Part shown: piece by piece, positions 2,810 through 61,957 of the stretch
How the letters are laid out: every line of letters starts with the position of its first letter
How positions within the stretch are numbered: the stretch's first letter is position 1
The notes under the pieces: generated by a model
What the model was told of the DNA's origin: nothing
Databases searched by the model: none
Seen by the model: the letters and a program-made list of their open reading frames with translations, nothing else
NCBI GenBank assembly: GCA_009785215.1
Contig: WQWU01000005.1
Span: forward strand, 1-62,303
Length of the DNA stretch: 62,303 bases
Reading direction: 5' to 3'
Origin: Treponema sp.
GTDB taxonomy: Bacteria; Spirochaetota; Spirochaetia; Treponematales; Breznakiellaceae
Translations under genes and position numbers: made by a program

Positions 2810-4168
2810 TTAACTGCGATTGCTCATTGGAACATATTCTTGCTGTTTTGTTACAGACTTGTAAGCAGGGCGGATAATCTTTCCGTTATTTACAAGTTCT
2901 TCGAGCCTGTGTGCACTCCAGCCTGCTACACGGGCTATTGCAAACAGCGGTGTAAAAAGTTCAGGCGGCAAATCCAGCATGCTGTAAACAAAACCCGAAT
3001 AAAAATCGATGTTTGCGCTTACACCTTTGTAGATCTTGCGAACCTTGCCGATAATTTCTGGTGCAAGTGTTTCAACCTTGGAATAAAGCATGTATTCTTT
3101 TTCCCTGCCTTTTTCCTTTGCAAGCTGTTCAACAAACTGGCGGAAAATGAGCGCACGGGGATCAGAAAGCGAGTAAACGGCATGACCCATTCCGTAGATT
3201 AAACCGGATTTATCAAAACCTGCTTTGTTAAGAAGTTTTTCCAGATAAGCGTTAATTTCGTTATCATCGCTCCAGTTGGAAATATTATTCATCATGTCGC
3301 GGAACATCTGCACAACTTTAATGTTTGCTCCGCCGTGTCTTGGCCCTTTAAGCGATGCAAGGGATGCAACTACTGCAGAGTATGTGTCGGTATGCGAAGA
3401 TGTAACAACATGATTTGTAAAGGTCGAGTTGTTACCGCCGCCATGCTCGGCATGAAGGACAAGAGCAAGATCCAAAATACGCGCTTCAAAATCGGTATAT
3501 TTTGAATCAGGGCGTAACATATGAAGGATATTTTCCGCAATTGATTTTCCCTTCTGGGGCGGATGAATCATAAGGCTCTTGTTTTCGTGGAAGTGAGCAA
3601 ATGACTGATACCCGTAAACCGCAAGCAGCGGAAACTGTGCTATCAGATTGATGGACTGGCGCAGAACATTCTGAATAGAAATATCGTCCGCATTTTCGTC
3701 AAAAGCATAAAGAGTTAATACGCCTTTGGAGAGCGAGTTCATCATGTCTTTGCTTGGAGCGCTCATGATTGTATCGCGTACAAAGTTTTCGGGAAGAACA
3801 GTGTGAGCCTCGAGCATTTCTGCAAACTCGGCATACTCGGCTTTACTGGGCAAGTGGCCGAACAACAGAAGAAAGCATGATTCTTCAAAACCAAAGCGCT
3901 TTTCGTTTAAAAAGCCCTCAACGAGTTTTTCGATATTTATGCCGCGATAAAAGAGCTTGCCTTCGCATGGCACTAGATCGCCTTCCTGCATTACATAAGA
4001 AATAATCTCGGAAATTTCTGTAAGACCTACCAGCACACCTTTTCCGCTGATATCCCTTAAGCCGCGTTTTACTTCATACTTTAGATAGAGTTCATTGTCT
4101 ATCATTCCATTGTCAAGCATGAGTTTCGAGTACTTTTCGATAAATTTGTTTTTTTGTTCGTTATTCAT
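2810..4168 (-). CDS. Citrate synthase
   Basis: This 452-residue protein belongs to the citrate synthase (Si-type) family and condenses acetyl-CoA with oxaloacetate in the cytoplasm. Family landmarks are HAEHGGG at 239-245, LKGPRHGGAN at 273-282, GMGHAVY at 326-332 with active His329, and Asp388 in NIDFYSG. The GHAVY form and the length of about 450 residues match the longer anaerobe-type enzymes, not the roughly 430-residue E. coli GltA. Aconitase and isocitrate dehydrogenase are not in the window, so a glutamate-biosynthetic role is only an inference. The ATG sits 6 bases after a TAGAAT box with TTGACC at 17 bp spacing, and no Shine-Dalgarno site is present. The mRNA is probably leaderless. 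Confidence 0.95.
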   Translation of the reverse strand: MNNEQKNKFIEKYSKLMLDNGMIDNELYLKYEVKRGLRDISGKGVLVGLTEISEIISYVMQEGDLVPCEGKLFYRGINIEKLVEGFLNEKRFGFEESCFLLLFGHLPSKAEYAEFAEMLEAHTVLPENFVRDTIMSAPSKDMMNSLSKGVLTLYAFDENADDISIQNVLRQSINLIAQFPLLAVYGYQSFAHFHENKSLMIHPPQKGKSIAENILHMLRPDSKYTDFEARILDLALVLHAEHGGGNNSTFTNHVVTSSHTDTYSAVVASLASLKGPRHGGANIKVVQMFRDMMNNISNWSDDNEINAYLEKLLNKAGFDKSGLIYGMGHAVYSLSDPRALIFRQFVEQLAKEKGREKEYMLYSKVETLAPEIIGKVRKIYKGVSANIDFYSGFVYSMLDLPPELFTPLFAIARVAGWSAHRLEELVNNGKIIRPAYKSVTKQQEYVPMSNRS

Positions 4169-4174
4169 GCAGAA

Positions 4175-4203
4175 ATTCTAGCATAAATTGATTAATTGGT
4201 CAA
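4175..4203 (-). promoter_or_regulatory. Promoter of citrate synthase (leaderless type)
   Basis: Read on the minus strand: TTGACC (4198-4203), 17 bp spacer, TAGAAT (4175-4180), then 6 bases to the ATG at 4168. The expected transcription start falls on or next to the start codon. Confidence 0.7.
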
Positions 4204-4221
4204 AGGTGTCAAGAGTGGCAA

Positions 4222-4704
4222 TCAGCCGGTTTTTACATTATTTATATCTTCGGAAGAGATGCTCAGTCTGCCATCGGCCTTCCTGGAAGCAACCTTCCTG
4301 AAGTACTCAAAGTATTTTTTGTCCATTAATGCAATGTGTGACAAAACCCAGTCTTTTAAAAACCTTGTAAAAGTTGAAAGAGTAAGCCGTTTTCCAGCCT
4401 CGTAGTCTTTGATATTTTCGACTACGGCAAGAATGAAAGTTTCGTGTTCTTTTTTGTGCTCGGCATAACCTTCGAACTTGGTCGCAATCATTAATTTTTC
4501 TTCGGTGGCAAAGTGGGTTTTTACATAAGCGACCGCATCGTTAATAACCCTGTTAAAATAATTATGTTCCTGCAGATCATTCCCTGTGACATGGTTAAAC
4601 ATTTCGTTTACCAGGGCTACTAATTCTTTATGCTGGTCATCTATCAATTTAATCCCGCTGGAAAACTTTTCTGACCATGTAATTAATTCATTGTTTACTG
4701 CCAT
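4222..4704 (-). CDS. Bacteriohemerythrin
   Basis: This 160-residue four-helix protein retains all seven hemerythrin iron ligands: His25 (DDQHKEL), His64 and Glu68 (HFATEE), His83 and His87 (HKKEH), His123 and Asp128 (HIALMD). It should bind O2 at a non-haem di-iron site. In anaerobes and motile bacteria such proteins are thought to sense, store or scavenge oxygen. It is a stand-alone domain with no attached methyl-accepting or cyclase module. A GAGG Shine-Dalgarno site precedes the ATG. It lies upstream of citrate synthase in the same direction but has its own promoter. Confidence 0.95.
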   Translation of the reverse strand: MAVNNELITWSEKFSSGIKLIDDQHKELVALVNEMFNHVTGNDLQEHNYFNRVINDAVAYVKTHFATEEKLMIATKFEGYAEHKKEHETFILAVVENIKDYEAGKRLTLSTFTRFLKDWVLSHIALMDKKYFEYFRKVASRKADGRLSISSEDINNVKTG

Positions 4705-4728
4705 AAAACCCTCACTATATTGTACCAG

Positions 4729-4757
4729 ATTATACCAAAATATAAATTTTTAAACAA
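4729..4757 (-). promoter_or_regulatory. Promoter of the hemerythrin gene
   Basis: Minus-strand TTGTTT (4752-4757), 17 bp spacer, TATAAT (4729-4734). This leaves a short leader that includes the GAGG ribosome-binding site. It is nearly back-to-back with the aroF promoter. Confidence 0.6.
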
Positions 4758-4759
4758 GA

Positions 4760-4788
4760 TTGAATAATTATTAAAAAATCGATACAAT
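4760..4788 (+). promoter_or_regulatory. Promoter of aroF
   Basis: TTGAAT (4760-4765), 17 bp spacer, TACAAT (4783-4788), followed by a leader with AGGAG six bases before the ATG at 4809. Confidence 0.6.
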
Positions 4789-4808
4789 TTCTTCCATAGG
4801 AGCTGAAA

Positions 4809-5822
4809 ATGGTCTTTATTTTAAAGCCCAATGTACCAAAGGAAAAGATAGACAAGTTCATTACTGAATGGGAACAAAAAGGTTTTTCTACCATATACAG
4901 TGTGGGAACTGAGCATACTGCTATCTGTTTAATTGGAAACACTATTGCTGTAGATCTGGATCATGTTGTTCAAACGAATGATATAATAGATTTTGGAAAA
5001 CGTATTACCGAACAATTCAAAGCTGTAAACCGCACTGTTCACGAAGATGATACAATTGTAAAAGTTGGGGATGTGTCCATAGGCGAAGGTTTTTTTCCGG
5101 TAATTGCAGGGCCTTGTTCGGTCGAAACCCATGAACAAGTTTTGGAAATTGCCCGCAGCGTGAAACAAAGCGGAGCAAAGATTCTCCGCGGAGGAGCGTT
5201 TAAACCCAGATCTTCGCCTTATGCATTTCAGGGCAAGCAGGTTGAGGGGCTGGACATGCTGCGTCTTGCAAAAAAAGAAACCGGACTTCCGATTGTTTCG
5301 GAAATTATGAATCAGACTCAGGTTGATTTATTCGATGATGTTGATATGGTACAAATCGGCGCAAGGAATATGCAAAACTATGATTTATTAAAAGTTGTAG
5401 GCAAGTTAAAAAAACCTGTTCTTTTAAAACGCGGTCTTGCCAACACAATAGAAGAATTATTAATGAGCGCTGAATATATCGTGTCATCAGGGAATAATAA
5501 TGTTATTTTATGCGAACGCGGCATCCGCACATTCGAAACATATACACGTAATACGCTGGATTTATCAGCTATCGCTGTAATTAAGCAAAAATCGCATCTG
5601 CCTGTTATTGTTGATCCAAGTCATGCTGCCGGTATCAGAAGTCTTGTTCCGCCGCTTGCAAAAGCTGCATTGGCTGTCGGCGCAGACGGTCTTATGATAG
5701 AAGCGCATAACAATCCCGCAAAAGCATTGTGCGACGGTGCTCAATCGTTGGATCTGGAACAGTTCGGCGAACTAATGAGCGAATTAAAAGTGCGTGCGGA
5801 GATAGAGAAGAAAATATTCTGA
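4809..5822 (+). CDS. aroF: 3-deoxy-7-phosphoheptulonate synthase (DAHP synthase, type I-beta)
   Basis: The protein catalyses the first step of the shikimate pathway, joining phosphoenolpyruvate and erythrose 4-phosphate. The 337 residues comprise an N-terminal ferredoxin-like regulatory domain (about 1-75) and a TIM barrel. The barrel carries AGPCSVET (metal-ligand Cys103), KPRSSPYAFQG at 132-142 and a late DPSHAAG. This two-domain form is the Thermotoga/Bacillus-type enzyme, in which the N-terminal domain usually senses an aromatic amino acid. An AGGAG site supports the start. trpE follows after 51 bases in the same direction, consistent with supply of chorismate for anthranilate. Confidence 0.96.
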   Translation: MVFILKPNVPKEKIDKFITEWEQKGFSTIYSVGTEHTAICLIGNTIAVDLDHVVQTNDIIDFGKRITEQFKAVNRTVHEDDTIVKVGDVSIGEGFFPVIAGPCSVETHEQVLEIARSVKQSGAKILRGGAFKPRSSPYAFQGKQVEGLDMLRLAKKETGLPIVSEIMNQTQVDLFDDVDMVQIGARNMQNYDLLKVVGKLKKPVLLKRGLANTIEELLMSAEYIVSSGNNNVILCERGIRTFETYTRNTLDLSAIAVIKQKSHLPVIVDPSHAAGIRSLVPPLAKAALAVGADGLMIEAHNNPAKALCDGAQSLDLEQFGELMSELKVRAEIEKKIF

Positions 5823-5826
5823 TTTA

Positions 5827-14670: not shown

Positions 14671-14699
14671 AAAATACACTGCATAAAATTATTTGTCAA
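14671..14699 (-). promoter_or_regulatory. Promoter of the ASKHA gene
   Basis: Minus-strand TTGACA (14694-14699), 17 bp spacer, TATTTT (14671-14676), 9 bases to the ATG at 14661. The leader would be about 0-3 bases, so the AAGGG in those 9 bases would not be fully transcribed. Confidence 0.6.
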
Positions 14700-14718: not shown

Positions 14719-14747
14719 TTGTATAAATAATTTTATAACTATATAAT
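14719..14747 (+). promoter_or_regulatory. Promoter of carbonic anhydrase (leaderless type)
   Basis: TTGTAT (14719-14724), 17 bp spacer, TATAAT (14742-14747), then 6 A-rich bases to the ATG at 14754. No Shine-Dalgarno site is present. Confidence 0.7.
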
Positions 14748-15317: not shown

Positions 15318-15346
15318 TTGATAATATCTCTCCATTAATATATAAT
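15318..15346 (+). promoter_or_regulatory. Promoter of the MtaA-type methyltransferase (leaderless type)
   Basis: TTGATA (15318-15323) begins right after the carbonic anhydrase stop. It is followed by a 17 bp spacer, TATAAT (15341-15346) and 7 bases to the ATG at 15354. Confidence 0.7.
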
Positions 15347-21674: not shown

Positions 21675-21680
21675 ACAAAT

Positions 21681-21715
21681 ATCATATAGTCAAAATCGAA
21701 ATAATTCCATATAAT
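21681..21715. promoter_or_regulatory. Divergent leaderless -10 boxes between the GlpA-like and DUF4838-like genes
   Basis: In the 47-base divergent gap, TATGAT (21681-21686, minus) lies 6 bases before the minus-strand ATG at 21674. TATAAT (21710-21715, plus) lies 6 bases before the plus-strand ATG at 21722. Clear -35 boxes are lacking, so an activator or extended promoters may be involved. Confidence 0.5.
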
Positions 21716-21721
21716 TAAACC

Positions 21722-25363: not shown

Positions 25364-26896
25364 CTAACTTAATATAACTTTATAGCCAAATACATCCTGA
25401 AACATTCCGCCTTTTTCTTCCAAACCCATTAATTCCAGAGAAAGATCATAAACTTTGTCTACATGAAGAACAACAGTTTCCAGGCGGCGCTCTACAGTAA
25501 TTTTTTTTATTTGCTGTGTATGACCGCGATCCAAAGCGTCTGCAACCCTTAGAATCGATGCCATTTTAAGAACAAGCACACGTTCTTCGCGCTGAAGCTT
25601 CATAAACTCAATATCCGACTGCGACGGAGGATCGCCGCGGTGACAATTTATTACGTTTGCAATAATATCAATTTCATCCTTATGAAGTCCGAATATTTCC
25701 GAGTTTGCAACAATGTACTGCCCGTGTTTCTGATGCCCGGAAGCTTTAATATAAGTGCCGACATCATGTAAAACTGCACTTATTTCCAGCATGATGCGAT
25801 GCCGCCTGTTCATGCCATGCTCTTTTATTAAGGCGTCAAAAATTGTCATACAGTGATTTGCAACATGGCGTCCATGTGCTTCATCAAAATGATATTTGCG
25901 TCCAAGGTTTACAGCAGATGCAATAATCTGTGAAAAGAACTCATTCTGCAAGGCTGGATCAACGCCTGAAGCAAGGTCTACAAGATACCCATCGCGGATT
26001 GTAACAAGCGGAACAGCAATGCTTGCAGCTCCTGTCCGTTCAAGAAAAAGTTTTAAAACCAAAAGTCCAGGTATGAGTCCTTCTGCATCAGTATATGTTA
26101 TGCCAAACTTAAAAATGCAGTCTTCTATGCTGTAACTGCGTATTTTTTCTACAAACTTAATAAATTCATTGCGTTCTATAATGCGGCAGTTTGTATTTAA
26201 TTCCTTTCCAACCCTGTCTGCAACAAGACGCGCATCTGCACCTGCAGCAACCATTGTCCGGACATGGGCAAGATCCATTTCCATATTCAGCATGCCCAAT
26301 GTATTCCTGATATTTTCATTTAAATAACGTTCAAAAAAAATCCCCGCGCCAAATCCATGGCGTGAATGCTGATCTATTATAATCGTTCCCATTTTTAAAC
26401 TGTGAGCTGCAACCATCTGTCCGCGGCGTAAAAGCATAATTTCTGTAGAACCGCCGCCAATTTCGATAATCATGGAATTGGCACGCCAGAACAACGGAAG
26501 ATCCTGCTTTAAAGCAAACCGCACCGCCAGATACATCAATCTGTTTTCTTCTATACCTTCTACGATAATCAGTTTAAAACCTATTTCCTGCAAAACACGA
26601 TCAATAAAAACATCTCTATTACGCGCAACTCGAAGAGCGCTTGTAGCAATTACATGAATGTTATCATCTGTTATTCCCCATCCCGATAATAATTCACGGT
26701 AATTCTGCAAAACAGAAAGGCACTCCAGCATCGATTCTCTGGAAAGAACACCGGATGTAAAAACATCACGCCCCAGAGCAGCAGGACGCACGGCGCGATC
26801 CAATACCTGCCAGCCGCCGTTGGAATATATTTCTGCAACATGAAGCCTGATGCCTGTTGAGCCGATTTCAATAATTGCAGTTAAAGTCGTGGTCAT
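25364..26896 (-). CDS. ppx: Exopolyphosphatase / pppGpp phosphatase with HD domain
   Basis: The 510 residues form an ASKHA Ppx/GppA domain (IEIGSTGIRLHVAEI at the N-terminus; IEIGGGSTEIMLL near 147) and a C-terminal HD-type helical domain with VLHDVGTYI. It should release phosphate from polyphosphate chains or from pppGpp. The first loop reads GSTG instead of the usual GSNS. The ATG is only 2 bases after the stop of the upstream glycosidase gene and has no Shine-Dalgarno site, so translation is probably coupled. Confidence 0.93.
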   Translation of the reverse strand: MTTTLTAIIEIGSTGIRLHVAEIYSNGGWQVLDRAVRPAALGRDVFTSGVLSRESMLECLSVLQNYRELLSGWGITDDNIHVIATSALRVARNRDVFIDRVLQEIGFKLIIVEGIEENRLMYLAVRFALKQDLPLFWRANSMIIEIGGGSTEIMLLRRGQMVAAHSLKMGTIIIDQHSRHGFGAGIFFERYLNENIRNTLGMLNMEMDLAHVRTMVAAGADARLVADRVGKELNTNCRIIERNEFIKFVEKIRSYSIEDCIFKFGITYTDAEGLIPGLLVLKLFLERTGAASIAVPLVTIRDGYLVDLASGVDPALQNEFFSQIIASAVNLGRKYHFDEAHGRHVANHCMTIFDALIKEHGMNRRHRIMLEISAVLHDVGTYIKASGHQKHGQYIVANSEIFGLHKDEIDIIANVINCHRGDPPSQSDIEFMKLQREERVLVLKMASILRVADALDRGHTQQIKKITVERRLETVVLHVDKVYDLSLELMGLEEKGGMFQDVFGYKVILS

Positions 26897-28440: not shown

Positions 28441-30888
28441 TTAATGATGGGTGTTTAATACAAAAAAACTGCGTGATAGCATATTACCGGCAGAATCGAC
28501 TAAAACAAGAGTTCGATAACCAGGCTCCGGCCTTGCTTCCATTTCATGAAAGACCTGCGTAATTCCAAGGAATTTGTCATCCAGGTGCCAGAAAATTGTT
28601 TCTGTTTCATTTCTGTGCGCTGCAGAAAAAACGATTTTTCCTTCACTGCCGTCCAGCTCCCGCGGAACATAAACCTGGCTGTCAGGTTCAGGATTAAAAA
28701 GCGCAAGTACCATCTCGCCTTGTCTTTGGCTTTGCCATGGCAGCTGATTAGCATTTATTAAAGGAGGCATAGGTTTGTAATCCAGATTCCAGCGCCTGAA
28801 ATACCATTCTTCCGCGGGAGGTAGAACAAACCATTTTCGTTCTACTGCAGATGTAAAAACGCCTTGTTCAAGTACAATGCGGCGATCCAGAGTATCGTTT
28901 AAAATAATGGTACGGCAGAAATAGCAAGCCTTTGCGGCAGGCGCGTTTTTGGGAATATCAGCAAATTTAATTTCTGCACAGTGAATAGATGCAGGAAAAC
29001 CGGATGCAAGGCATACTTCATCCTGCCGCAGCTCAATTGCAGGTTTTAAAAACCATGTATCGCGGTTTCCGCCAAGTGAATCAAGAGCAGAAAAGATTTC
29101 AAAAAAAACCGGAGCTGCGGTAACTGAACTTCGCAGTTCTGGTCTTCCCTCTCCTGAAGCATTTCCAATCCAGACACCTACTGTCCATTCAGGAGTTACT
29201 CCAATTGTCCAGGCATCGCGAAAGCCAAAACTTGTGCCTGTTTTCCATGAAATATTTCTTGCACTGGCAAATTCCTGCCAGATTGCTTCTTCGCCGGGGC
29301 GCACTGCATGAACAAGAGCTTCCAATGTAAGCCATGAAGCGCCCGGAGAAATCAATGAAGAAGCAACAGGTTGTCTTAGAACAGATGTTTTTCCGTTTCC
29401 GCTTTTTGTAGTTAGTACGGGAGAAAAAAAGACTTCGTTTACCAATGTGCTGGAAAAGGAATTAACAGATCTTCCAAGACCGGCATAAAGACCTGTAATT
29501 TCCCAAAGTGTAACTTCCGCTCCGCCTAAAATAAGAGGAAGCCCGTAATCGCTGCCGTGCCGGAAAAGCGTAGTAAGCCCCAATGAACGAAGAAGCCGCG
29601 CAAACCTGTCAGTGCCGTAAAGACGCAGTGAACGCGCCGCAGTTACATTTAATGAACGCGCCAAAGCTTCGTCTGCTGGTACAACACCAAGGTATGTGCG
29701 GGTGATATTCTCTGGGCTAAAACTTCCTACACGGGTTGGAATATCACTTAAAAGCGAAAAAGGTAGAATATCACCCGTATCCAGCATTGCAGCATAAAGA
29801 AACGGTTTTAAAAGACTGCCGGAACTGCGGCGCGAATTAGCGGTATCAACATCTGCAGCATGAGGCGAATTGGTATTTCCTACGTAGGCAAAAGTTTCGC
29901 CTGTCCGGGTATTTATTACTACACAGGCGCCGTTAAAAATACCATTCCATGCAAATCGTTCAGATGCCCGGTTCAGTATTTCTGCAACTCTTACCTGTAA
30001 ATCGCGATCTATCGTGGTATTAAAAGCTGCATGTCCTTTAAGCGCTGTTACACCGCCTGATTCCAGGACAAGGCGATCCAATAGATGCGGAGCATGACGC
30101 GGAAGAGGAAGAGGTTCGCCGGGAAGAGGTTCCATTATGCTTAAAAACAGGGTTTCTTCATCAAAAAAATCCCTTTCATAAAGTTTATTTAAAAGCGAAT
30201 CGCGTTTTGATTTAAGGGTTTCACGATTACGCCCCGGATGAATAAGAGCTGGACTATTCGGTAAAACTGCCAGAGTTGCAGCTTCTGCCCAGGAAAGGTC
30301 TCCCGGGCTTCTTCCAAACCAGCGCCAGGCGGCAGCTTCAAGCCCGACAACATTTGCACCGAAAGGAGCGTTAGCTGCATACAGGGTAAGAATGTCGTTT
30401 TTTGATCTTCCTATTTCAAGACGTACCGCAAGCACTGCTTCTATACACTTTTCAAAAAAAGTACGTTTTTTAAAACCGCGGGCCAGACGAATTGTCTGCA
30501 TGGTAATTGTAGAGCCGCCGGAAATTATACTGCCGCCCTGAATATTCTGAACAGCAGCCCGCCCTATTGCCAGAGGATCAACGCCGATATGCTTTCTGAA
30601 TCTGCGGTCTTCGGCTTCTATTAAAGCAGCAACAAATTTTTCATTTAAATTATCAGAGCCGGGAAAACGCCATTGTCCGTCTATTGCTACTCTTGCGCCA
30701 AGAAGCCTGCCTTCGCGATCGTAAAGCACAGGAGAATATGAAACATTAAAAAGAGGTTTAGGCAGTGAAAAAACAAACAATAATAACAGGAATAACCCCA
30801 AAGCTGAAAAACACGCAGCTTTACGGTTATTTCCAATTAAACGAATTATTTTATAAATAGTATTTATAAAAAATTCCATGTTTGTCAT
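28441..30888 (-). CDS. pbpC: Penicillin-binding protein 1C (bifunctional)
   Basis: The 815 residues comprise one membrane helix (about 25-42), a GT51 glycosyltransferase domain (EDRRFRKHIGVD, catalytic Glu93) and a transpeptidase domain. The transpeptidase has SLLK (Ser358/Lys361), SLN near 415 and KTGTSFGFRDAW. A C-terminal BiPBP_C domain (about 720-810) completes the PBP1C layout. It makes and cross-links peptidoglycan at the outer face of the inner membrane. It lies 24 bases after the alpha-2-macroglobulin gene, the same pairing as E. coli yfhM-pbpC. Two start codons are possible, 30888 or 30879. Confidence 0.96.
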   Translation of the reverse strand: MTNMEFFINTIYKIIRLIGNNRKAACFSALGLFLLLLFVFSLPKPLFNVSYSPVLYDREGRLLGARVAIDGQWRFPGSDNLNEKFVAALIEAEDRRFRKHIGVDPLAIGRAAVQNIQGGSIISGGSTITMQTIRLARGFKKRTFFEKCIEAVLAVRLEIGRSKNDILTLYAANAPFGANVVGLEAAAWRWFGRSPGDLSWAEAATLAVLPNSPALIHPGRNRETLKSKRDSLLNKLYERDFFDEETLFLSIMEPLPGEPLPLPRHAPHLLDRLVLESGGVTALKGHAAFNTTIDRDLQVRVAEILNRASERFAWNGIFNGACVVINTRTGETFAYVGNTNSPHAADVDTANSRRSSGSLLKPFLYAAMLDTGDILPFSLLSDIPTRVGSFSPENITRTYLGVVPADEALARSLNVTAARSLRLYGTDRFARLLRSLGLTTLFRHGSDYGLPLILGGAEVTLWEITGLYAGLGRSVNSFSSTLVNEVFFSPVLTTKSGNGKTSVLRQPVASSLISPGASWLTLEALVHAVRPGEEAIWQEFASARNISWKTGTSFGFRDAWTIGVTPEWTVGVWIGNASGEGRPELRSSVTAAPVFFEIFSALDSLGGNRDTWFLKPAIELRQDEVCLASGFPASIHCAEIKFADIPKNAPAAKACYFCRTIILNDTLDRRIVLEQGVFTSAVERKWFVLPPAEEWYFRRWNLDYKPMPPLINANQLPWQSQRQGEMVLALFNPEPDSQVYVPRELDGSEGKIVFSAAHRNETETIFWHLDDKFLGITQVFHEMEARPEPGYRTLVLVDSAGNMLSRSFFVLNTHH

Positions 30889-30912: not shown

Positions 30913-33900
30913 TTAGCGGACACCCGGTATCAAAGCCCTGATGGATTCATCATACATTGCATAAACATGTATCGCCGGCCTGAAGAACGATCCTTCATAA
31001 GCTTTATTAACCCTGAACCTAATGGTTCTTTCCTCGTTTCTGTTAAGATTAAAGTAAGTCATTACCCTGTCGTCTCGTATATCCTGATAACGGAAAGACG
31101 ATGACTGCGGTGATGCGCCGCCGCCAATACGTGTATTAACTATTTCCCACGAAGCGGAAATTGGAACAATAAGCGCAATTTCTTCCAGTACTTGCGCAAA
31201 TGTATTCCGTACACGAACAACAATTTCCATATCTTCGCCTATCTTTAAATTCGCAGGATCAATTATCCTGTTATTTGTATCGCGGTATTCAACAGCCAGA
31301 GAAAGTCCTTCGGACAATGCAGGTTCACTTCCTTCGGCAGGCAAACCCCTTGATGTATATCTTACATACACAGGAAACGCAGAACGGTTTACAGCAGTAA
31401 AGTTTGTATTTGTACCCGATACACTTCCGAATGAATGATCTGCCGAAGGACTTGTAAAGGAAATATTTCTTGTCTGTCCTGCTGCAGAATAATCTACATT
31501 AATTTGTTCGTTTCCTGCATTAAGCTGCATATAAGGAGCTAAAGCAATAAGCGCATAGGCAGTTTCCTGTGTAGAAAGCCATGAATCCTGCGAAAGAGCC
31601 GTTGTTATTTCTTCAAATAAAGCGCTTGTCCTGCCCATATCTTCCGGCGAATTAATTAAAATAAGCGTTTCAAGTATCATTGCTTTATCTCTTAAAGTAG
31701 AACCAAATGTTGCGGAAAGTTCGCGGTATTCTTCCTGCGGAACAGCTAAACCTCTGACCATCGATCTTGCTGTTTCACGCTGACCTGCATGCCAATATGC
31801 GGCGGCAAGACGCCAGCTAGCCTGAAAAGGCAATCTGTGACTGCGAAGACGATTCATTGATCCAAGATCAGCTTCTCCCGCCAGAGCTAATGTATAAAGC
31901 CTGTAAGCCTGTTCTAAATATTTTCCGCCCGACTGCCAAAGAGCGGCAGTGTTCTTTTGATAATTTATCCAGCTTCTTAATGCGCTTTCTCTAACAACAT
32001 AACCTGCCCGGCGGGCTTCCAATAAGAAATGCCCGACATAAGAAGAGCTCCAGTCGTTTACTGATGATTCGCCAGGCCAGTATGAAAAACCGCCGGAAGC
32101 CAGCTGCATACCCAGAACGCGTTCTATACCTGCATTAATATTTGATCTAATTTCTGCGAGCCGCGTATCGTTTAGGGAAAGAACTTTATCAAGATAAAGC
32201 TGAGGAAAAACCGTACTTGTTGTTTGTTCCAGACAGCCATGGGGATAACGGAGCAGGAATTCCAAACGCGATTCAAGATTGAGGGGCGGCAGCCTTGAAA
32301 AACTTGCAACTAATGTATTTGACCCGTCTCTTCCAGGATATGTTAGTGTTCCTCTCCATGTCTCGCCGGGAGCTACAAGATTTTGCACAGATCTTGTAAC
32401 AGGTATAGCGGTAGAACGTACTTCCATATCTGTAACATGACGCGCTGTTCTTAACCCGGAAGATTCTGCAGTTACAGTGAACTGAAGATTACCGGGATTA
32501 GCGGGCGCCTTTACTCTGAAACGAATTAATTTTTCTCCGCTTCTTTCGAACGAAACATTCTGAACTGCCTGACCCTGAATTGCTGCTCCAGGTACAGAAA
32601 GAGTTACCCTGACATTTCTGCTTCCGTCTCTTTGAGAATTAACATAAACAGGAATTTCTACTTCATCCCCAGGTGAAAGAACACGGGGAAGAGAAGCAAA
32701 AACCATAAGATCGGAAGTTACTCTGACAGTTTTTTCCGCTGTTCCGTATGCGCGTAAAGCCCTGCCTGTCTGAGGCTCCCTTGTAGAAGAGGCGGCAAGA
32801 ACCATTACACGTACTGCGCCTATGTACGGAGGAAGTTCAAAAGTTTCTGTTTTTTGCTCGCCTCTGCCAATTTCAAACGGGCCAAAGAAACGCACTACAG
32901 GTTTAAAACGCTGAGTTTCTTTACTTGTATCCAGCGGATCAGCGCCGCCTCCTCCGCCAATTGCAAGCAATGTTTCAAGTCTTCCTGAATATGCGCCAAT
33001 TATTTCATTATATATATCCCATGATTTTAGGAACGACGCATCTCTTGCATAAAAAGTATTTCTTGGATTTGGAATATTAAAACGGGTAAGCCCAAGCAGT
33101 CCTTCATCTACAACAGCAACAGTATACGCCATTGGGCGTCCGTTTGCTTCGCTTACCGTAAATGAAACCCTGCTCTCTGCCTGCCAATTATCCTGTGTAG
33201 TTATCTGCGGACTCAATACAACACGCGGATCTTCTATAGACACAGGAGTAATGCCGTAAAGGCGGACAGGCAGATCATTTTGCGTCTGCAAATGAGGCTG
33301 AACAAGAGTTACATGCACATAAATGTTCGGAACCATCGATGCTTCTGCAGTAAATTCATAACGGGTCGTTTCTCCTTCGCATCGAATCCATTCGCTTCTT
33401 ATTATATTTCCGCCTTTTTCGATAGTAACAAGGGCGGATGCATCTCTATTGGATGGAAATGTTATCTGCACTCTTTCACCGGTATTATAAGAAGGTTTCC
33501 CTGGGCTTAAAGCAAGCATTGCCTGCGAACCCTGACCGCCCTCCCGGGCGCGTCCTGCCCAGCCCGGCCAATCAATATAAACAATTTGTGCAGAAGAATG
33601 GCCGCCTAAACGATCCCGTACAATTACAAGAAAACGGCCCCACTCAGGATGATTAACTCTAAAATTCCATGATGCTCTTCCGTTGGAAGCAGTAACAGTT
33701 CCTCTATGTAACGGACTGCGCGAAAGAATCGAAGCAAATTCTGCAGATTCGCCTCTTCCTGCTTCCCACCACCAGCGCCAATTTAATTTATATACAGCGC
33801 ATTCCAGCTCTACATTTCCCTGAACTGGTCTTCCGTCTTCGTCCAATAAAACAATCTCTGCGCGGTGATCCACATCTGTAAGAAGCATATTTCTTGAGGC

Positions 33901-36429
33901 GTCTCCCCTTGGAAGCCTTAACCCTACATATCTGCTGTACGGAGAATATTCTTTGCTAATTTGTTCAGATGAAAAAACCCCAGATGGTTCAAAAACTCTT
34001 GTCATAAAACGCGCAGTTACTTTACCGGGAACAGCAGTACCGGGATTAAGACTCATTTGAAATGACGCCTTACCATCCCTATCCAAAGTTCCTTCCCAAA
34101 TATTCTGACGCTGCGATGAAACTGTTCTTGAAGGATCGCGGAAAGAAAAATCATTAAATGCCGGGAATACTGTTTCTTTGTCTGAAAAACTTACAGTAAC
34201 ATCCGCTTTTAAACCGGAAGCAGGCGCACCGTAAAGCCACTCGGATTCCAAAGAAACCTGCCGTGCACCGCTTTTGATAATTTCATCATCGCCGAAACTA
34301 AGATCCATTTTTAATCTGTTCGGCATGACTGTTTCTATTTTTATATTTCTGTTAAATGTGCTTCCGCCGACACGCACACTTGCTATCCAGTCTCCTGTTG
34401 GAGCATCGGATGCTGTAGAAACCGATATTGGATAAAAACCGTCTACAGATGTTGTATAGGTACGATTAACTACAGGACGTCCTCTTGGATCGATAAGTTC
34501 AAACGAAACAGGATGATTTCCGGGAAGCGTTCCAAGCGGATCAGATAAAAGAAATGTTAAATAGATTTCATCACCCGGACGCCATACATCACGCTCCCCG
34601 TAGATAAGACCGCGGATACCAGTTGTAGGAGTACCGCCTGAAATATCAAAATGACTTACGGCAAGCGCAAGAGAATCATTAATTCTTAAATAGGCTCTGC
34701 CCAAATTACTTTCTGCAAATATAACAAGGCGCGAACCGCTTCCTGTTTCTGCCGATGCCGGTATTGAAGCTATTCCATTCGCATTTGTTCTGCCTTGATG
34801 CAAAACGCGGCCCTGGTAATTTAAAACTCTGTATTCCGTGTTAGGTGAAGGACGGCCGGTTGTCAGATTAGTCGTAGAAAAATGCCATGAACCGTCCAGG
34901 TTTCTTTTTACAAGAAGCCCCAGATCCGAAACAAGCACATTCCGGCTCTTGGAAATATTATTGCCGCTCATGGGAACATAAAATGCCGGATGACAAGGAT
35001 CCTGACGGTGCCGGCTCCATTCATTCCAGTTTGACCACATATTATTTTGATAATAATCCCAGAAACTCCGCTGACTATCAGGGCCAATCCGGGGAAAAGC
35101 ATCATCTGGAAATTCCAGACCAGAAAAATTTCCATGGTTTTCGGTACATACATATTGAACATGCCTGTGCCTGAAACTTATTCTTACATGAAACATTCCG
35201 CCGGGAAATCTGCGGCTAAGTTCTCCGACATCAAGCCCGCGGCGTATCCATCTATTTTGATCCGATGCCGACCATTCAAAATCAAAAGCTCTTGACCATA
35301 CAGGTTCTCCGACACGATCAAGCTGAGCCTCTCCTGCAAGGCTGTTAATCTGCAGGAACTGAAACATATTGTGGTTATATATATGAAAAGCTTCTATTAA
35401 AATGCCGGAAACATTTTTTGTTTCTACTACAAGCTGTGCGCCCTGGCTTGTCGGCAGAATTACTCCGGAACCTGCAAAACGTATTTCCGGCAATTCCCAT
35501 CTGTCAGGAATTGTAAATTGCACAGGAATATTAAGGCGTTTACCGTTAATGTCTTCCAGATCCTGAATTAAAAGTTCAGTACCTGCCGGAATATTTCCGG
35601 AATCACTTCCAAATATTTTTACTACATTTCCTTCCAGTGAATAACGCACATCGGTATTGCCGGAAAGAGAAATAAAACCTCTTAAATCCTGGCTTGCGCT
35701 GATATTGGAAGAAAAAGCAACTTCTATTATACCGCTTTCAAAATTAAGGCTGAGCATTTTAAATATATCCAGACCGGGAATCACAACGGTAGTAAAACCT
35801 CTTTCATTAATGCCAACAGACGAACCGTTCCAGGTAATTTCGGCAGTTCTGGATGTTTCACCGCGGCTAACCGGAGAAAAGAAAAAACGGTGCCTATGGT
35901 TTTCATGATCCCATGAAGGCCTTCCTAATTCACTCGAAGAAATTATCTGCTGTATTTTTGATATATCCGTATCTTCATCAACATATACAACTCCCGATAT
36001 TAAAACATCATCATCGCCGCTAAGGCGCACAGGATCTATCTCTACATTAAAAACAGGAGCTGCTGCAGTAAAATCAAAATTAAACGGTTTAATTCCTGCA
36101 ATATTTACACGAACGCGGTACCGCTGTCCGGGTTTAAATGATTCTGCCGGAGTAAAAACCAAAGTAAACTCATCCCGCCAAGAAACTTCGCCTTTTACAG
36201 AAGGACTAAAATTAAAAATATTTGCGTTTAAAGAAGCTGAAGTATCCTGAGCTGTTGTAAATTCAATAATGACATTATCATTCCTTCCTAAAACTCCGCT
36301 GGAAACAGCTGATATGTACTGAGGATCCGGAGGAAAACTTTTACCTTTACAGGATAAAATAAAACATCCCAAAAGAAGCGTTATGACAATTAACATAAAA
36401 AAACCGGTTAAATTTTTATTTTTTTTCAT
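30913..36429 (-). CDS. Bacterial alpha-2-macroglobulin lipoprotein (YfhM-like)
   Basis: The 1838-residue periplasmic protein begins with a lipoprotein signal (lipobox LLGC or ILSC within residues 18-28), so it should be anchored to a membrane. Multiple macroglobulin-like beta domains are followed by a thioester motif CLEQ at Cys1399 inside an alpha/alpha barrel (about 1370-1650) and a C-terminal receptor-binding-like domain. Intact CLEQ means it can trap proteases covalently, guarding the cell wall when the envelope is breached. A strong AGGAG site precedes the ATG. It is upstream of pbpC in the same transcript, the classical defence/repair pair. Confidence 0.96.
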   Translation of the reverse strand: MKKNKNLTGFFMLIVITLLLGCFILSCKGKSFPPDPQYISAVSSGVLGRNDNVIIEFTTAQDTSASLNANIFNFSPSVKGEVSWRDEFTLVFTPAESFKPGQRYRVRVNIAGIKPFNFDFTAAAPVFNVEIDPVRLSGDDDVLISGVVYVDEDTDISKIQQIISSSELGRPSWDHENHRHRFFFSPVSRGETSRTAEITWNGSSVGINERGFTTVVIPGLDIFKMLSLNFESGIIEVAFSSNISASQDLRGFISLSGNTDVRYSLEGNVVKIFGSDSGNIPAGTELLIQDLEDINGKRLNIPVQFTIPDRWELPEIRFAGSGVILPTSQGAQLVVETKNVSGILIEAFHIYNHNMFQFLQINSLAGEAQLDRVGEPVWSRAFDFEWSASDQNRWIRRGLDVGELSRRFPGGMFHVRISFRHRHVQYVCTENHGNFSGLEFPDDAFPRIGPDSQRSFWDYYQNNMWSNWNEWSRHRQDPCHPAFYVPMSGNNISKSRNVLVSDLGLLVKRNLDGSWHFSTTNLTTGRPSPNTEYRVLNYQGRVLHQGRTNANGIASIPASAETGSGSRLVIFAESNLGRAYLRINDSLALAVSHFDISGGTPTTGIRGLIYGERDVWRPGDEIYLTFLLSDPLGTLPGNHPVSFELIDPRGRPVVNRTYTTSVDGFYPISVSTASDAPTGDWIASVRVGGSTFNRNIKIETVMPNRLKMDLSFGDDEIIKSGARQVSLESEWLYGAPASGLKADVTVSFSDKETVFPAFNDFSFRDPSRTVSSQRQNIWEGTLDRDGKASFQMSLNPGTAVPGKVTARFMTRVFEPSGVFSSEQISKEYSPYSRYVGLRLPRGDASRNMLLTDVDHRAEIVLLDEDGRPVQGNVELECAVYKLNWRWWWEAGRGESAEFASILSRSPLHRGTVTASNGRASWNFRVNHPEWGRFLVIVRDRLGGHSSAQIVYIDWPGWAGRAREGGQGSQAMLALSPGKPSYNTGERVQITFPSNRDASALVTIEKGGNIIRSEWIRCEGETTRYEFTAEASMVPNIYVHVTLVQPHLQTQNDLPVRLYGITPVSIEDPRVVLSPQITTQDNWQAESRVSFTVSEANGRPMAYTVAVVDEGLLGLTRFNIPNPRNTFYARDASFLKSWDIYNEIIGAYSGRLETLLAIGGGGGADPLDTSKETQRFKPVVRFFGPFEIGRGEQKTETFELPPYIGAVRVMVLAASSTREPQTGRALRAYGTAEKTVRVTSDLMVFASLPRVLSPGDEVEIPVYVNSQRDGSRNVRVTLSVPGAAIQGQAVQNVSFERSGEKLIRFRVKAPANPGNLQFTVTAESSGLRTARHVTDMEVRSTAIPVTRSVQNLVAPGETWRGTLTYPGRDGSNTLVASFSRLPPLNLESRLEFLLRYPHGCLEQTTSTVFPQLYLDKVLSLNDTRLAEIRSNINAGIERVLGMQLASGGFSYWPGESSVNDWSSSYVGHFLLEARRAGYVVRESALRSWINYQKNTAALWQSGGKYLEQAYRLYTLALAGEADLGSMNRLRSHRLPFQASWRLAAAYWHAGQRETARSMVRGLAVPQEEYRELSATFGSTLRDKAMILETLILINSPEDMGRTSALFEEITTALSQDSWLSTQETAYALIALAPYMQLNAGNEQINVDYSAAGQTRNISFTSPSADHSFGSVSGTNTNFTAVNRSAFPVYVRYTSRGLPAEGSEPALSEGLSLAVEYRDTNNRIIDPANLKIGEDMEIVVRVRNTFAQVLEEIALIVPISASWEIVNTRIGGGASPQSSSFRYQDIRDDRVMTYFNLNRNEERTIRFRVNKAYEGSFFRPAIHVYAMYDESIRALIPGVR

Positions 36430-40548: not shown

Positions 40549-40554
40549 AAACAT

Positions 40555-40560
40555 ATTATA
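40555..40560 (-). promoter_or_regulatory. -10 box of the envelope operon (leaderless type)
   Basis: Minus-strand TATAAT at 40555-40560 stands exactly 6 bases before the ATG at 40548. No good -35 hexamer was found at 16-18 bp spacing. Confidence 0.55.
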
Positions 40561-42062: not shown

Positions 42063-42068
42063 TACAAT
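42063..42068 (+). promoter_or_regulatory. -10 box before the 67-residue gene (leaderless type)
   Basis: TACAAT at 42063-42068, 6 bases before the ATG at 42075. No convincing -35 was found. Confidence 0.4.
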
Positions 42069-49717: not shown

Positions 49718-49747
49718 ATTATAATACACATACTGACAAAGAAACAA
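49718..49747 (-). promoter_or_regulatory. Promoter of the OppA-like gene (leaderless type)
   Basis: Minus-strand TTGTTT (49742-49747), 18 bp spacer, TATAAT (49718-49723), 6 bases to the ATG at 49711. No Shine-Dalgarno site is present. Confidence 0.65.
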
Positions 49748-52388: not shown

Positions 52389-52417
52389 ATTATAGAATAA
52401 AAAATGATATATGGGAA
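52389..52417 (-). promoter_or_regulatory. Promoter of thrC (leaderless type)
   Basis: Minus-strand TTCCCA (52412-52417), 17 bp spacer, TATAAT (52389-52394), 8 bases to the ATG at 52380. Confidence 0.55.
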
Positions 52418-55188: not shown

Positions 55189-55217
55189 GTGACAGAATGA
55201 CAGGTATATGTTATAAT
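55189..55217 (+). promoter_or_regulatory. Promoter of the beta-CASP gene (leaderless type)
   Basis: GTGACA (55189-55194), 17 bp spacer, TATAAT (55212-55217), 6 bases to the ATG at 55224. The upstream in-frame ATG at 55197 lies inside this promoter, so it is not the start. Confidence 0.7.
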
Positions 55218-59119: not shown

Positions 59120-59680
59120 CTACTGTAATAAGTCTATCAGAAGACCGCGTATCTCCTCAAGTCTGGAAACAAGTTCCATTTGAGGCGCTTGGCTGGAAAG
59201 AAGCATTGCTGCTAAATCCTCAAGCTTTTTATCAATAACCGATATTTTTGTATAACCCTTGCTGTCTTCCGCCGCCGGAGAAGACCGCCGTCCTTTATAA
59301 CCTGGTTTATATTTATTTTTAATACCTTCTTCATAATCCAGGGTATAGCAATTTTGCACTACATAGTTAATAAAATTACGCACTGCCTGTTTATAATTCA
59401 TTATTTCTTCCGGCAAAGGGCGGCTTTTTAATCTATCACCTGTGTCGCGGACTTCGTCCATCAATATATTAACCGATTCTTCTGATACAGGCATGTCTCG
59501 CAATTGACCAATCTGATCCGCTGTTTTGCCTCTTAATTCATTAAATAAATTTGAGAATTCAGTTTTACCGCTGCCGCGGATACCTTTAGATTTTTTATCA
59601 TCTGCTTTTCCATGTTTTAACTGCGAATAGGCAGAAGGGTTCATGTATAAAGAAGGATCTGTTCCGTCAACTTTAGCCAT
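59120..59680 (-). CDS. YaaR-family (DUF327) protein
   Basis: This 186-residue helical protein matches YaaR/DUF327 in length and pattern (EFSNLFNELRGK, ILMDEVRDTGDRLKSRPLPEEIMNYKQAVRNFINYVV). Members are encoded next to YaaT-type PSP1 proteins, as here. Its function is unknown. It overlaps the bactofilin gene by 8 bases and is followed by the PSP1 gene after 33 bases. Confidence 0.88.
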   Translation of the reverse strand: MAKVDGTDPSLYMNPSAYSQLKHGKADDKKSKGIRGSGKTEFSNLFNELRGKTADQIGQLRDMPVSEESVNILMDEVRDTGDRLKSRPLPEEIMNYKQAVRNFINYVVQNCYTLDYEEGIKNKYKPGYKGRRSSPAAEDSKGYTKISVIDKKLEDLAAMLLSSQAPQMELVSRLEEIRGLLIDLLQ

Positions 59681-60101
59681 AGGTTTTTTGGAAAACAGGT
59701 AATGCCGATCTTATACCTAAAGCATCCCTGTGTTCTGACATAGTCTTTAACCAGCGTTCTTCATTTTGACATACAGCTACTTTACCATTGATAAAACATC
59801 CGTCATCGGCCTGAATGCGGCGGGTAATAATATCACCAATAACAATTGCAGTAGAAAGAATTATAAGCTGGCCGTCTGCGATAATATTTCCGTAAACAAC
59901 TCCGCCAATTGTAATGTTAGTGCCGGATAAATTGCCTTTCATTCTGGCTCGCTCGCCGATTACTACCCTGCCCTTTGCACGTACATCGCCGCGTATACTG
60001 CCATCGATTCGAGTAAAACCGCCTGTCTCGATATTTCCGGTAAAACTTGTATTGGGGCCAATTATCGTATTAATGGAAAAATCTGAATTATCCTGAGCCA
60101 T
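59673..60101 (-). CDS. Bactofilin
   Basis: The 142 residues contain the right-handed beta-helix repeat of bactofilins (NTIIGPNTSFTGNIETGG, then RIDGSIRGDVRAKGRVVIGE and GVVYGNIIADGQL). A C-terminal extension of about 35 residues follows. Bactofilins polymerise without nucleotide and direct cell-wall enzymes. The neighbouring M23 peptidase gene, 19 bases upstream, is the expected partner for helical shape, as in Helicobacter CcmA/Csd and in Leptospira. Confidence 0.93.
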   Translation of the reverse strand: MAQDNSDFSINTIIGPNTSFTGNIETGGFTRIDGSIRGDVRAKGRVVIGERARMKGNLSGTNITIGGVVYGNIIADGQLIILSTAIVIGDIITRRIQADDGCFINGKVAVCQNEERWLKTMSEHRDALGIRSALPVFQKTYG

Positions 60102-60120
60102 CTTAAACCCTGCTCACGTA

Positions 60121-61152
60121 TCAGCGTCCTTGTCTGGCAAGGCTGTTGCGGATAGTAATATACCGGTATGGATCTACAACATCAGAACCTATGTGTACTT
60201 CATAATGAAGATGAGGTCCTGTAGAAATACCTGTGCTTCCGATATAACCGATTACTTCGTTCTGCTGAACACGCTGTCCAACTTGCACCCTGTAATTCTG
60301 CATGTGCGCATAACGGGTATAATAACCGTGTTTATGCCTTATAATTACATAGTAGCCGTAATCGTATGAATACTCAGCTGTAACGACCTGTCCGTCTGCC
60401 GCCGCTACAATAGGATCGCCGAAACGGTGAGTGGCAATATCGATGCCTCTGTGAATATAATACTGACCGTGAATTGGGTGAATATTCTGACCAAAAAACA
60501 TAGTGATATGCCCAATTCCGTTTCTTACAGGCCAAATACTAGGAATCTCTGTTAACAAGGCGCTTTGCGAATCCATAAGAGCGCCAAGCTCCCTGATTGG
60601 TTCTACTGCCTGTGAAAGATAAACAGAAAGACGTCTAATATCGTTAACTTCCCTTAAGAGACCTTCGGGAGTTTCGTTTATTCCAATAAGAGAACTTAAA
60701 TCGCCTGTTGTGTTATGAGCCAGTGAATTATTATTGCCGATACCCAATGCAGAAAGAACACCGGAAAGGGCATTTTCAAAATTGCGCGCTTCCCTGATTA
60801 ATAGATTTGCTTCGTCACGGAATTGATCAAGCGAAGCTTGAGTATTTCTAAGCCGTCCGTCTTTATCCGCAATAGCGTACATGGTACTGCTGTAAGACGC
60901 TCCGTAAAAAAAGAAAGCTCCCAGTATGCCAAAAACAACCAAAAGGAAGCAGGTAATTGATAAAACCGTTACATGAAGATTGTAGACTTTCTTTTCTGAA
61001 TGAGGAACAAATACTACTGTATAACGTCTTGTTAAAAATCTGCCCAAAGACCTGAAAGCATCAGCTAAAAAGCCAAAAAAACCCTTTGTTTCGCTTTTTA
61101 CCCTTTGAACAAACTTGTTTTCCAGACGTTTATATTCATGTACCGAGGCCAT
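60121..61152 (-). CDS. Membrane-anchored M23 peptidase, cell-shape type
   Basis: The 343 residues comprise a basic N-terminus, one membrane helix (about 55-77), a coiled coil (about 85-130), and an M23 lytic domain with HRGIDI, YTRYAHM and GPHLHYE, so the zinc site is complete. It should trim peptidoglycan crosslinks at sites set by the downstream bactofilin. AGGAG five bases upstream of the ATG and a consensus promoter make this the first gene of the operon. Confidence 0.94.
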   Translation of the reverse strand: MASVHEYKRLENKFVQRVKSETKGFFGFLADAFRSLGRFLTRRYTVVFVPHSEKKVYNLHVTVLSITCFLLVVFGILGAFFFYGASYSSTMYAIADKDGRLRNTQASLDQFRDEANLLIREARNFENALSGVLSALGIGNNNSLAHNTTGDLSSLIGINETPEGLLREVNDIRRLSVYLSQAVEPIRELGALMDSQSALLTEIPSIWPVRNGIGHITMFFGQNIHPIHGQYYIHRGIDIATHRFGDPIVAAADGQVVTAEYSYDYGYYVIIRHKHGYYTRYAHMQNYRVQVGQRVQQNEVIGYIGSTGISTGPHLHYEVHIGSDVVDPYRYITIRNSLARQGR

Positions 61153-61176
61153 TTATACTCCTACAATTGTTCTCCC

Positions 61177-61205
61177 ATTCTACCACAGAATGAAAGAACT
61201 GTCAA
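61177..61205 (-). promoter_or_regulatory. Promoter of the M23-bactofilin-yaaR-ricT operon
   Basis: Minus-strand TTGACA (61200-61205), 17 bp spacer, TAGAAT (61177-61182), with a leader of about 18 bases holding AGGAG. The -35 is a perfect match and the -10 is close to consensus. Confidence 0.75.
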
Positions 61206-61258
61206 TAAGAAATAGTGTCAATCATTATAACAAAAATTACTGACCATTATAATATCGG

Positions 61259-61287
61259 TTGATTTTACTGGAATTGTTAGCTATGAT
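61259..61287 (+). promoter_or_regulatory. Promoter of the P-loop ATPase gene (leaderless type)
   Basis: TTGATT (61259-61264), 17 bp spacer, TATGAT (61282-61287), 8 bases to the ATG at 61296. Confidence 0.6.
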
Positions 61288-61295
61288 GCTTTTCT

Positions 61296-61957
61296 ATGGT
61301 ATTTGACTCAAAATTAACGGTTTTTGCAGGGCTTAACGGCAGCGGAAAGACAACTATTGCTGTAATGCTGCTCTTTTCCTGGGAAAACAGGAAAAAAATC
61401 GATTTGGCAGTGTTTTACTGGCCGATCTGGACATTGTAAACCCCTATTTCCGCAGTAAAGACGCTGAAAAATCGCTTTTAGAGGCAGGTGTTACGTTTAT
61501 TTCGTCAGAATACGCAGGATCAGGGCTGGAAGCGCCAGCTTTGCCAAAAGCTATCGAGCAAATCTTTACTTCTAGCGGACAAATCATTATAGATGTCGGC
61601 GGTGACGAAGCCGGTTCGACGGTTTTAGGAAGATACTCAAAAGAAATATTGATGGCAGAAGACAGGCAATTTTATCTTGTTTTTAATCCATACCGCATGT
61701 TAACGCAGACTGTAATAGACACAAAAGACATTTTACATGGCATAGAGATAGTCTCACGTATACCTTTTACCGGAATTTTGTATAACCCTAACTTAGGATC
61801 GATAACGACAGCCGAAGACGTTCGCCGAAAGCTGCCGATTGCACAAGATTTGGCACAAAGTAGTAATTTACCCCTTGTTGCCACTTGCACATTGCGTCAC
61901 CTAAAACCGCAGTTACAGGATATAGAGAACCTTTTTTGCATGGATGCGGTGTTTTAA
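61296..61957 (+). pseudogene. P-loop (MinD/ParA-like) ATPase, frameshifted
   Basis: An ATG frame from 61296 encodes a Walker A GLNGSGKTTIAV and stops at 61439. A second frame encodes NAALFLGKQEKNRFGSVLLA, DLDIVNPYFR and the rest to the TAA at 61957. One missing A near 61363-61365 would join them into a protein of about 220 residues with deviant Walker A and LADLD motifs. Related stand-alone ATPases have no settled function. Either the copy is broken or the base was lost in sequencing. Confidence 0.78.

Follow-up and report, generated by a model that had tools for sequence, protein, structure and literature searches.

Roughly 7-9% of the genes in the draft genome of a Treponema species (Breznakiellaceae, Treponematales) are very probably transcribed without a leader, from sigma70-type promoters whose -10 hexamer ends six bases before the ATG start codon. 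The stretch of DNA analysed, referred to as the window, is the entire contig WQWU01000005.1 (62,303 nucleotides) of assembly GCA_009785215.1, a genome of 1.90 Mb that is 75% complete and has a guanine-plus-cytosine (GC) content of 39%. Since the citrate synthase encoded in the window shares 85-92% identity with those of eight Treponema metagenome-assembled genomes (MAGs), whose isolate labels we take to mean termite guts, the source organism is probably a Treponema MAG from a termite gut. A preliminary description of the window had listed twelve genes with a -10-like hexamer 6-8 bases (9 bases in one case) before the ATG and without a Shine-Dalgarno (SD) site, and had proposed that the ATG would be the first codon of their mRNAs.

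The main evidence comes from 862 kb of this genome (the window and 40 stretches of 20 kb), in which a simple gene caller found 746 genes, 719 of them with a usable first ATG; an SD tetramer is present before this ATG in 345 genes and absent in 374. With the gap defined as the number of bases between the end of the hexamer and the ATG, and the expectation taken from gaps 14-49, the motif TAnnnT stands at gap 6 in 59 of the 374 non-SD genes, compared with 12.2 expected and with just 2 of the 345 SD genes, which bears out the earlier suggestion of two initiation modes in one genome. The peak has shoulders at gaps 5 and 7 (24 and 21 non-SD genes), while gaps 8 and 9 (15 and 13) show no clear excess over the same expectation. 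The range of 6-8 bases originally given is thereby narrowed to a peak at exactly 6 with its two neighbours. The background rate of TAnnnT is about 3% per position per start. The excess amounts to about 47 of the 719 genes at gap 6 and about 67 over gaps 5-7, from which the share of leaderless genes is estimated as 7-9%, a rough figure because of errors in the start calls.

The signal is specific for sequence, position and start codon. When three-letter hexamer patterns were compared over gaps 2-11 (15 or more hits required), the lowest Poisson P value belonged to TAnnnT at gap 6, and TATAAT with at most one mismatch came out on top of its 20 anagrams (42 occurrences vs 7.2 expected; runner-up, 17 vs 6.9). 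A TTG at the -35 position, separated by a 17-bp spacer, accompanies 26% of 58 gap-6 hexamers as compared to 5% of 318 control hexamers, and at all other spacers from 10 to 25 bp its frequency never exceeds 5%. As to the start codon, the gap-6 excess is found before ATG (70 vs 21.7 expected) and weakly before GTG (8 vs 3.8); the peak is absent before TTG, CTG, ATA, ATC, ACG, and AAG, and likewise before the 27,395 ATGs that are no candidate starts (497 at gap 6, mean of 561). The gap-6 peak is not explained by any of the controls, which comprised shifted (gap 9) and backward patterns, anagrams, dinucleotide shuffles, ATGs that are not starts and codons other than ATG. An A-rich region downstream of the start, as a further signal of leaderless genes, was not found, the fraction of A in positions +4 to +18 being 0.39 vs 0.45 in SD genes. 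The genome-wide tabulation of -10-to-ATG distances suggested in the preliminary description, together with the shuffle control applied in the window, thus yields an excess over controls.

In the proposed layout, a -35 element close to TTGACA would be followed by a 17-bp spacer and a -10 hexamer of the form TAnnnT ending six bases before the ATG. In the usual geometry of sigma70 promoters, a -10 hexamer at -12 to -7 with a spacer of 17 bp places position +1 on the A of the AUG, which would be the first transcribed base. On such mRNAs, ribosomes would begin at the 5'-terminal AUG, a route known from other bacteria, and other genes would use SD sites. We infer both the position of the RNA 5' ends on the AUG and the ribosomal route; initiation at a terminal AUG is consistent with the alignment of this ATG among relatives of the beta-CASP nuclease and of citrate synthase.

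The beta-CASP nuclease gene keeps the layout over much of the order. As far as its upstream region could be assessed (25 loci from 24 relatives), the -10 hexamer is at gap 6 in 19 loci and at gap 5 or 7 in 5 (these five were assigned by eye), the exception being one locus with an SD site. The 24 loci with the leaderless layout belong to four families within the order, have 58-96% protein identity and carry the ATG at the same aligned codon. Beyond the order, 22 loci forming a subset of those retrieved (L205-L226, with L209 and L213 doubtful and L206 lacking a usable upstream region) include 13 with an SD tetramer, 5 with neither signal, and one (L222) with a hexamer at gap 6 and a weak -35 element.

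Citrate synthase shows a similar layout at closer range. Thirteen assessable orthologues from the same genus (73-92% identity) comprise nine with TAnnnT at gap 6, one at gap 5, and three which are SD-led instead; two of the ten (L178 and L179) combine TAnnnT with an SD tetramer, and in L180 the aligned start precedes the leaderless ATG by four codons. The single orthologue from elsewhere in the order (L187) has neither signal, and paralogues at roughly 50% identity whose N-termini could be aligned contain an SD tetramer in 9 of 10 cases. An alignment of seven sequences shows that the block from TAnnnT to the ATG is conserved and the region upstream poorly so. Four citrate synthase loci with an unaligned N-terminus (L190, L197, L199, and L201) were dropped, and the analysis as a whole excluded L051 and L175 for an unusable upstream region. 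SD-led species (L183, L185, and L186) and leaderless ones (L173-L184) thus occur within one genus, which makes this gene a natural set for comparing both initiation modes.

The -10 hexamer of thrC is at gap 6-7 in four of the seven same-genus homologues, to which the counts among the loci examined (L080-L092) are limited, and two of these four were assigned by eye. Carbonic anhydrase has one close homologue with the hexamer at gap 5 and two distant ones without such a signal, and the single orthologue seen of the OppA-like gene is not leaderless at the same codon. Among reciprocal-best orthologues in four relatives, the leaderless state is kept in 4 of 22 cases vs 4 of 163 for other genes under a strict rule (Fisher p=0.008), and in 10 of 38 vs 18 of 147 under a loose one (p=0.03), the pairs being pooled over the four relatives and hence not independent. 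Over the order, switching of the mode outweighs its conservation in this orthologue set, indicating much turnover.

Re-measurement of the twelve listed starts (Table 1) placed all -10 hexamers where they had been reported, with gap 6 in eight genes, gap 7 in one, gap 8 in two, and gap 9 in one. When the 85 candidate ATGs of the window were scored with a matrix derived from 52 genes located elsewhere in the genome, six reached p<0.01 against 200 dinucleotide shuffles, compared to 0.85 expected (the ASKHA ATG was counted twice and that of lepB was absent from the set). A -35 hexamer at 17-18 bp had been reported for seven of the genes; such elements are present, but the count is eight of the twelve when at least 4/6 matches to TTGACA are required. 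The reported absence of SD sites holds for eleven genes, the ASKHA gene containing AAGG, and SD tetramers were indeed found before the hppA, M23, and macroglobulin genes named as SD-led. Pfam matches fit the names given to the genes (Citrate_synt, Pro_CA, URO-D, DAO, DUF4838, SBP_bac_5, Thr_synth_N, Beta-Casp, RACo, and Peptidase_S26); a Pfam search with the 67-amino-acid gene gave no match.

Table 1. Promoter-like elements at the twelve listed starts and the divergent cassette (positions in the window).
Gene or feature	Strand	ATG	-10 hexamer	Gap	p	-35 hexamer	Remarks
Citrate synthase	-	4168	TAGAAT, 4175..4180	6	0.005	TTGACC, 4198-4203	spacer 17
ASKHA/RACo-like	-	14661	TATTTT, 14671..14676	9		TTGACA, 14694-14699	weaker case
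Carbonic anhydrase	+	14754	TATAAT, 14742..14747	6	0.005	TTGTAT, 14719-14724	-35: 3/6 matches to TTGACA
MtaA-type (URO-D family)	+	15354	TATAAT, 15341..15346	7	0.020	TTGATA, 15318-15323	
GlpA-like (DAO + Fer2_BFD)	-	21674	TATGAT, 21681..21686	6	0.040		
Divergent intergenic cassette, 21675..21721	.						47 bp, between GlpA-like (21674, -) and DUF4838-like (21722, +) starts
DUF4838-like	+	21722	TATAAT, 21710..21715	6	0.015	TAGTCA, 21687-21692	
lepB (Peptidase_S26)	-	40548	TATAAT, 40555..40560	6			no good -35
67-amino-acid gene	+	42075	TACAAT, 42063..42068	6	0.005		
OppA-like (SBP_bac_5)	-	49711	TATAAT, 49718..49723	6	0.005	TTGTTT, 49742-49747	spacer 18
thrC	-	52380	TATAAT, 52389..52394	8		TTCCCA, 52412-52417	weaker case
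Beta-CASP nuclease	+	55224	TATAAT, 55212..55217	6	0.005	GTGACA, 55189-55194	
P-loop ATPase	+	61296	TATGAT, 61282..61287	8		TTGATT, 61259-61264	weaker case

The leaderless reading likely applies to the nine genes with gaps 6-7, and is best supported, as far as promoter match and alignment can tell, for the beta-CASP nuclease, citrate synthase, and the GlpA-like/DUF4838-like pair. The thrC, P-loop ATPase, and ASKHA/RACo-like genes are weaker cases because gaps of 8-9 fall outside the genome-wide peak; the last of these likely has a promoter, and its mRNA would carry a leader of a few bases. The start codons which had been moved for four genes fare differently. That of the beta-CASP gene is backed by the 19 of 25 loci in relatives with gap 6 at the aligned ATG, those of lepB and the OppA-like gene are suggested by the promoter match alone, and that of thrC is less secure, with gap 8 in the window and gap 6-7 in the four homologues mentioned. 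The ATG of the longer lepB frame, at 40554, directly abuts the -10 hexamer. Beyond the twelve listed genes, the six ATGs at p<0.01 include that of a Ppx/GppA phosphatase gene (start 26896, span 25364-26896), which has TAAACT at gap 6, lacks an SD tetramer and starts two bases after the stop codon of the gene upstream; either translational coupling or an internal promoter may operate there. A polyphosphate kinase gene adjoins the Ppx/GppA gene. The P-loop ATPase gene is split across two frames (61296-61439, then a second frame to 61957), and is either a pseudogene or affected by an assembly error. Elsewhere in the window, a bacterial alpha-2-macroglobulin gene (30913-36429) adjoins a transglycosylase/transpeptidase gene with a BiPBP_C domain (28441-30888).

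Several observations weigh against a leaderless interpretation or limit its reach. The exclusion between -10 hexamers and SD sites is partly automatic, since a -10 element at -12 to -7 overlaps the SD position. Leaderlessness does not account for about 300 of the 374 first-ATG starts in the non-SD set; GGG precedes the start in some of these, and in many the start has probably been called wrongly. The -35 matches are poor for lepB (2/6) and for the GlpA-like, carbonic anhydrase, and OppA-like genes (3/6 each). Leaderless candidates are commoner at the head of transcription units, as 12 of 58 gap-6 genes follow a same-strand gene within 30 bases, compared with 327 of 710 among all genes. The rule is not strict, since gap-6 hexamers also precede 10 of 141 operon-internal genes in the first 462 kb; for genes placed inside units, internal promoters and chance are equally possible. 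In one of four relatives analysed at gene level (G019), gap 6 with 10 genes is not the highest value, gap 8 having 13, although TTG is found at spacer 17 in 8 of the 10 gap-6 starts. The claim that transcripts would start at the ATG draws strong support from statistics specific to position, codon and -35 element, together with conservation, all of which are properties of the DNA sequence.

Chance occurrence of AT-rich words could produce individual hexamers of this kind, given the AT-rich window and the background frequency of TAnnnT, and about one-fifth of single gap-6 genes (12 of 59) are expected on this basis. As the source of the excess, chance is refuted by the sharp single-base peak, its absence from SD genes, non-start ATGs and other codons, the shortfall of the TATAAT anagrams and the 13 vs 0.8 cases counted in a relative with 58% GC; it is very improbable as a general explanation and still possible for single genes. 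Alternatively, the promoters might be real and serve true starts at downstream ATGs preceded by normal leaders, a reading favoured by the error-prone nature of first-ATG calls and by the position of the citrate synthase ATG of L180. Among 58 gap-6 genes, 2 have a further in-frame start with a strong SD site in the next 40 codons, but SD-led genes show this at a similar rate (14 of 344), and the ATG occupies the same aligned codon in the beta-CASP genes and, except for L180, in citrate synthase. A fixed distance between a promoter hexamer and an ATG would not be expected if the ATG were no start, and downstream initiation appears highly unlikely. Very short leaders of 1-5 bases, with the start chosen by its proximity to the 5' end, are a possible but doubtful alternative. 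Leptospira interrogans, which belongs to the same phylum, offers a parallel for such mRNAs. About half of its approximately 440 mRNAs of this kind have a leader of at least 2 and fewer than 10 bases, according to the part of the study used here (PMC5243855), and both the shoulders at gaps 5 and 7 (24 and 21 vs 12.2) and the spread of 6-9 bases in the window would fit this pattern. The mode at exactly 6 with a spacer of 17 nevertheless points to the A of the AUG as the usual +1, and a short leader would be functionally close to the leaderless mode.

The preliminary description had also raised a regulatory split between the two modes, which would make the leaderless genes a regulon under its own translational control. 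Retention of the mode by the beta-CASP gene over an order and the strict orthologue concordance, with its non-independent pairs, speak for this proposal, but 3 of 13 assessable same-genus orthologues of citrate synthase are SD-led, and orthologues often switch their mode. Outside the window there are 52 leaderless candidates, of which 30, mostly with higher scores, were submitted to Pfam without an SD comparison set. The 24 genes with a match belong to sugar, amino-acid, tRNA, DNA replication, peptide, and transport functions; they include HPr kinase, PTS EIIA, alanine racemase, RNase II, peptide deformylase, HisG, a DnaX-like clamp-loader subunit, TyrRS, a class II tRNA synthetase, and MgtC. 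As these mixed functions lack a common theme, a regulon is unsupported. Neither shared function nor conserved class membership was found, although a few genes are conserved, and we regard a common regulatory role as rather unlikely.

Among genes with a divergent neighbour, the distance to it is 40-50 bp, which is about the length of a promoter, in 6 of 25 leaderless genes vs 1 of 65 SD-led genes. The GlpA-like and DUF4838-like genes of the window form such a pair, with a loose inverted repeat surrounding both -10 boxes. A pattern scan of eight genomes of the genus showed this pair in five species, with proteins of 57-83% identity, exactly 47 bp between the ATGs and the TAnnnT-6-ATG arrangement on both sides; in the intergenic alignment, 25 of 53 columns are invariant, including both ATGs. 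Two more divergent pairs of the genome, with 47 and 45 bp, each retain their spacing in a single relative. Of 20 pattern-matching regions compared, 6 share both proteins with one of these pairs and the other 14 share none. As the relatives were chosen for matching the pattern, the layout can be said to recur at the pair, which is not a measure of how often it is retained. A general preference of divergent leaderless pairs for 43-48 bp over the order was considered and rejected, since 171 matches in 116 genomes stand beside 146 matches at 53-58 bp and 80 for a backward pattern. Fixed divergent spacing is seen for conserved pairs only.

The distribution of the signature was assessed by counting TTG-N20-TAnnnT-N6-ATG and the corresponding N9 pattern in 149 whole genomes, with sums formed for selected groups. 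The Treponema genome itself gives 78 vs 23 and a genome of the sister genus (G162) 241 vs 59. Eleven genomes of family f3 (2.2-2.9 Mb) give 1043 vs 453, and further values are 52 vs 15 (f5) and 123 vs 28 (f45), as well as 174 vs 84, 65 vs 7, and 124 vs 32 for the families f6, f8, and f9 of the class. Other genomes of the phylum reach N6/N9 ratios of about 1 to about 4, as judged by eye. No N6 excess was found in a genome of 1.1 Mb (G027, 10 vs 10) and in four f7 genomes of 1.0-1.5 Mb (100 vs 103), so the signature of leaderless promoters is not enriched in the class's smallest genomes (1.0-1.5 Mb). At gene level, a gap-6 peak is seen in three of the four relatives analysed (G015, 15 vs 3.4; G154, 13 vs 0.8; G162, 10 vs 0.9).

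Leaderlessness may tentatively be viewed as a gene-specific trait under selection in the order, as represented by the beta-CASP gene in four families and by the 45- and 47-bp cassettes with interlocking sigma70 promoters, from which both mRNAs would start at the AUG. The nuclease might in this way escape or sense its own 5'-end-dependent decay, the cassettes would couple their genes by mutual exclusion of polymerases, and the absence of the signature from the smallest genomes of the class would belong to the same picture. A conserved leaderless gene and cassettes of fixed length are small and concrete targets for asking why a bacterium keeps leaderless mRNAs. In practical terms, gene finders that rely on SD sites may place start codons wrongly in genomes of this kind: the beta-CASP start in the window differs from the longest-frame call, and those of lepB and the OppA-like gene probably do as well.

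Leaderless genes are a known kind, including in this phylum, as evident from the sections used of a survey of bacterial TA-led genes, in which TANNNT, located some 12 bases before the start, is read as the -10 element of leaderless transcripts (Zheng et al., 2011, PMC3160421). The genes described here share the fixed -10 hexamer, the matching -35 element and the absence of SD sites with that class. Among the titles listed in literature searches, which extended to transcription start sites of T. denticola, none dealt with leaderless mRNA in Treponema, and none combined leaderless mRNA with bidirectional promoters or with termites. The word treponema is absent from the main text of PMC3160421, as far as it was available, "leaderless" refers to antimicrobial peptides in PMC9200625 and to a reference title in PMC12687308, and it is not present in PMC10319736 on Borrelia. 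These searches turned up no description of a nuclease gene that stays leaderless throughout an order, or of divergent leaderless pairs with a constant spacing.

In Deinococcus-Thermus and Actinobacteria, the -10 element also lies just before the start codon, and leaderless genes, including some with GTG starts, are mixed with SD-led ones. The Treponema genome shows a like mixture of modes, but uses mostly ATG (GTG, 8 vs 3.8). The leaderless share in those two phyla exceeds 20% according to the portion considered of PMC3160421, and the same source gives 6 of 18 genomes with a mean of 3.9% (1.8-6.9) for Spirochaetes. Differential RNA sequencing of Leptospira interrogans mapped the 5' ends of about 440 mRNAs to within 10 bases of the start codon (PMC5243855, in the part used), showing that a spirochaete does make many leaderless or near-leaderless mRNAs. 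That account, to the same extent, names no general promoter motif other than sigma54; the Treponema genome, by contrast, has a clear -35/-10 pair. Likewise, the passages used of the TA-led survey present Spirochaetes as a phylum total only (PMC3160421), compared with which the present analysis points to about 7-9% in one lineage and adds conservation at the level of individual genes.

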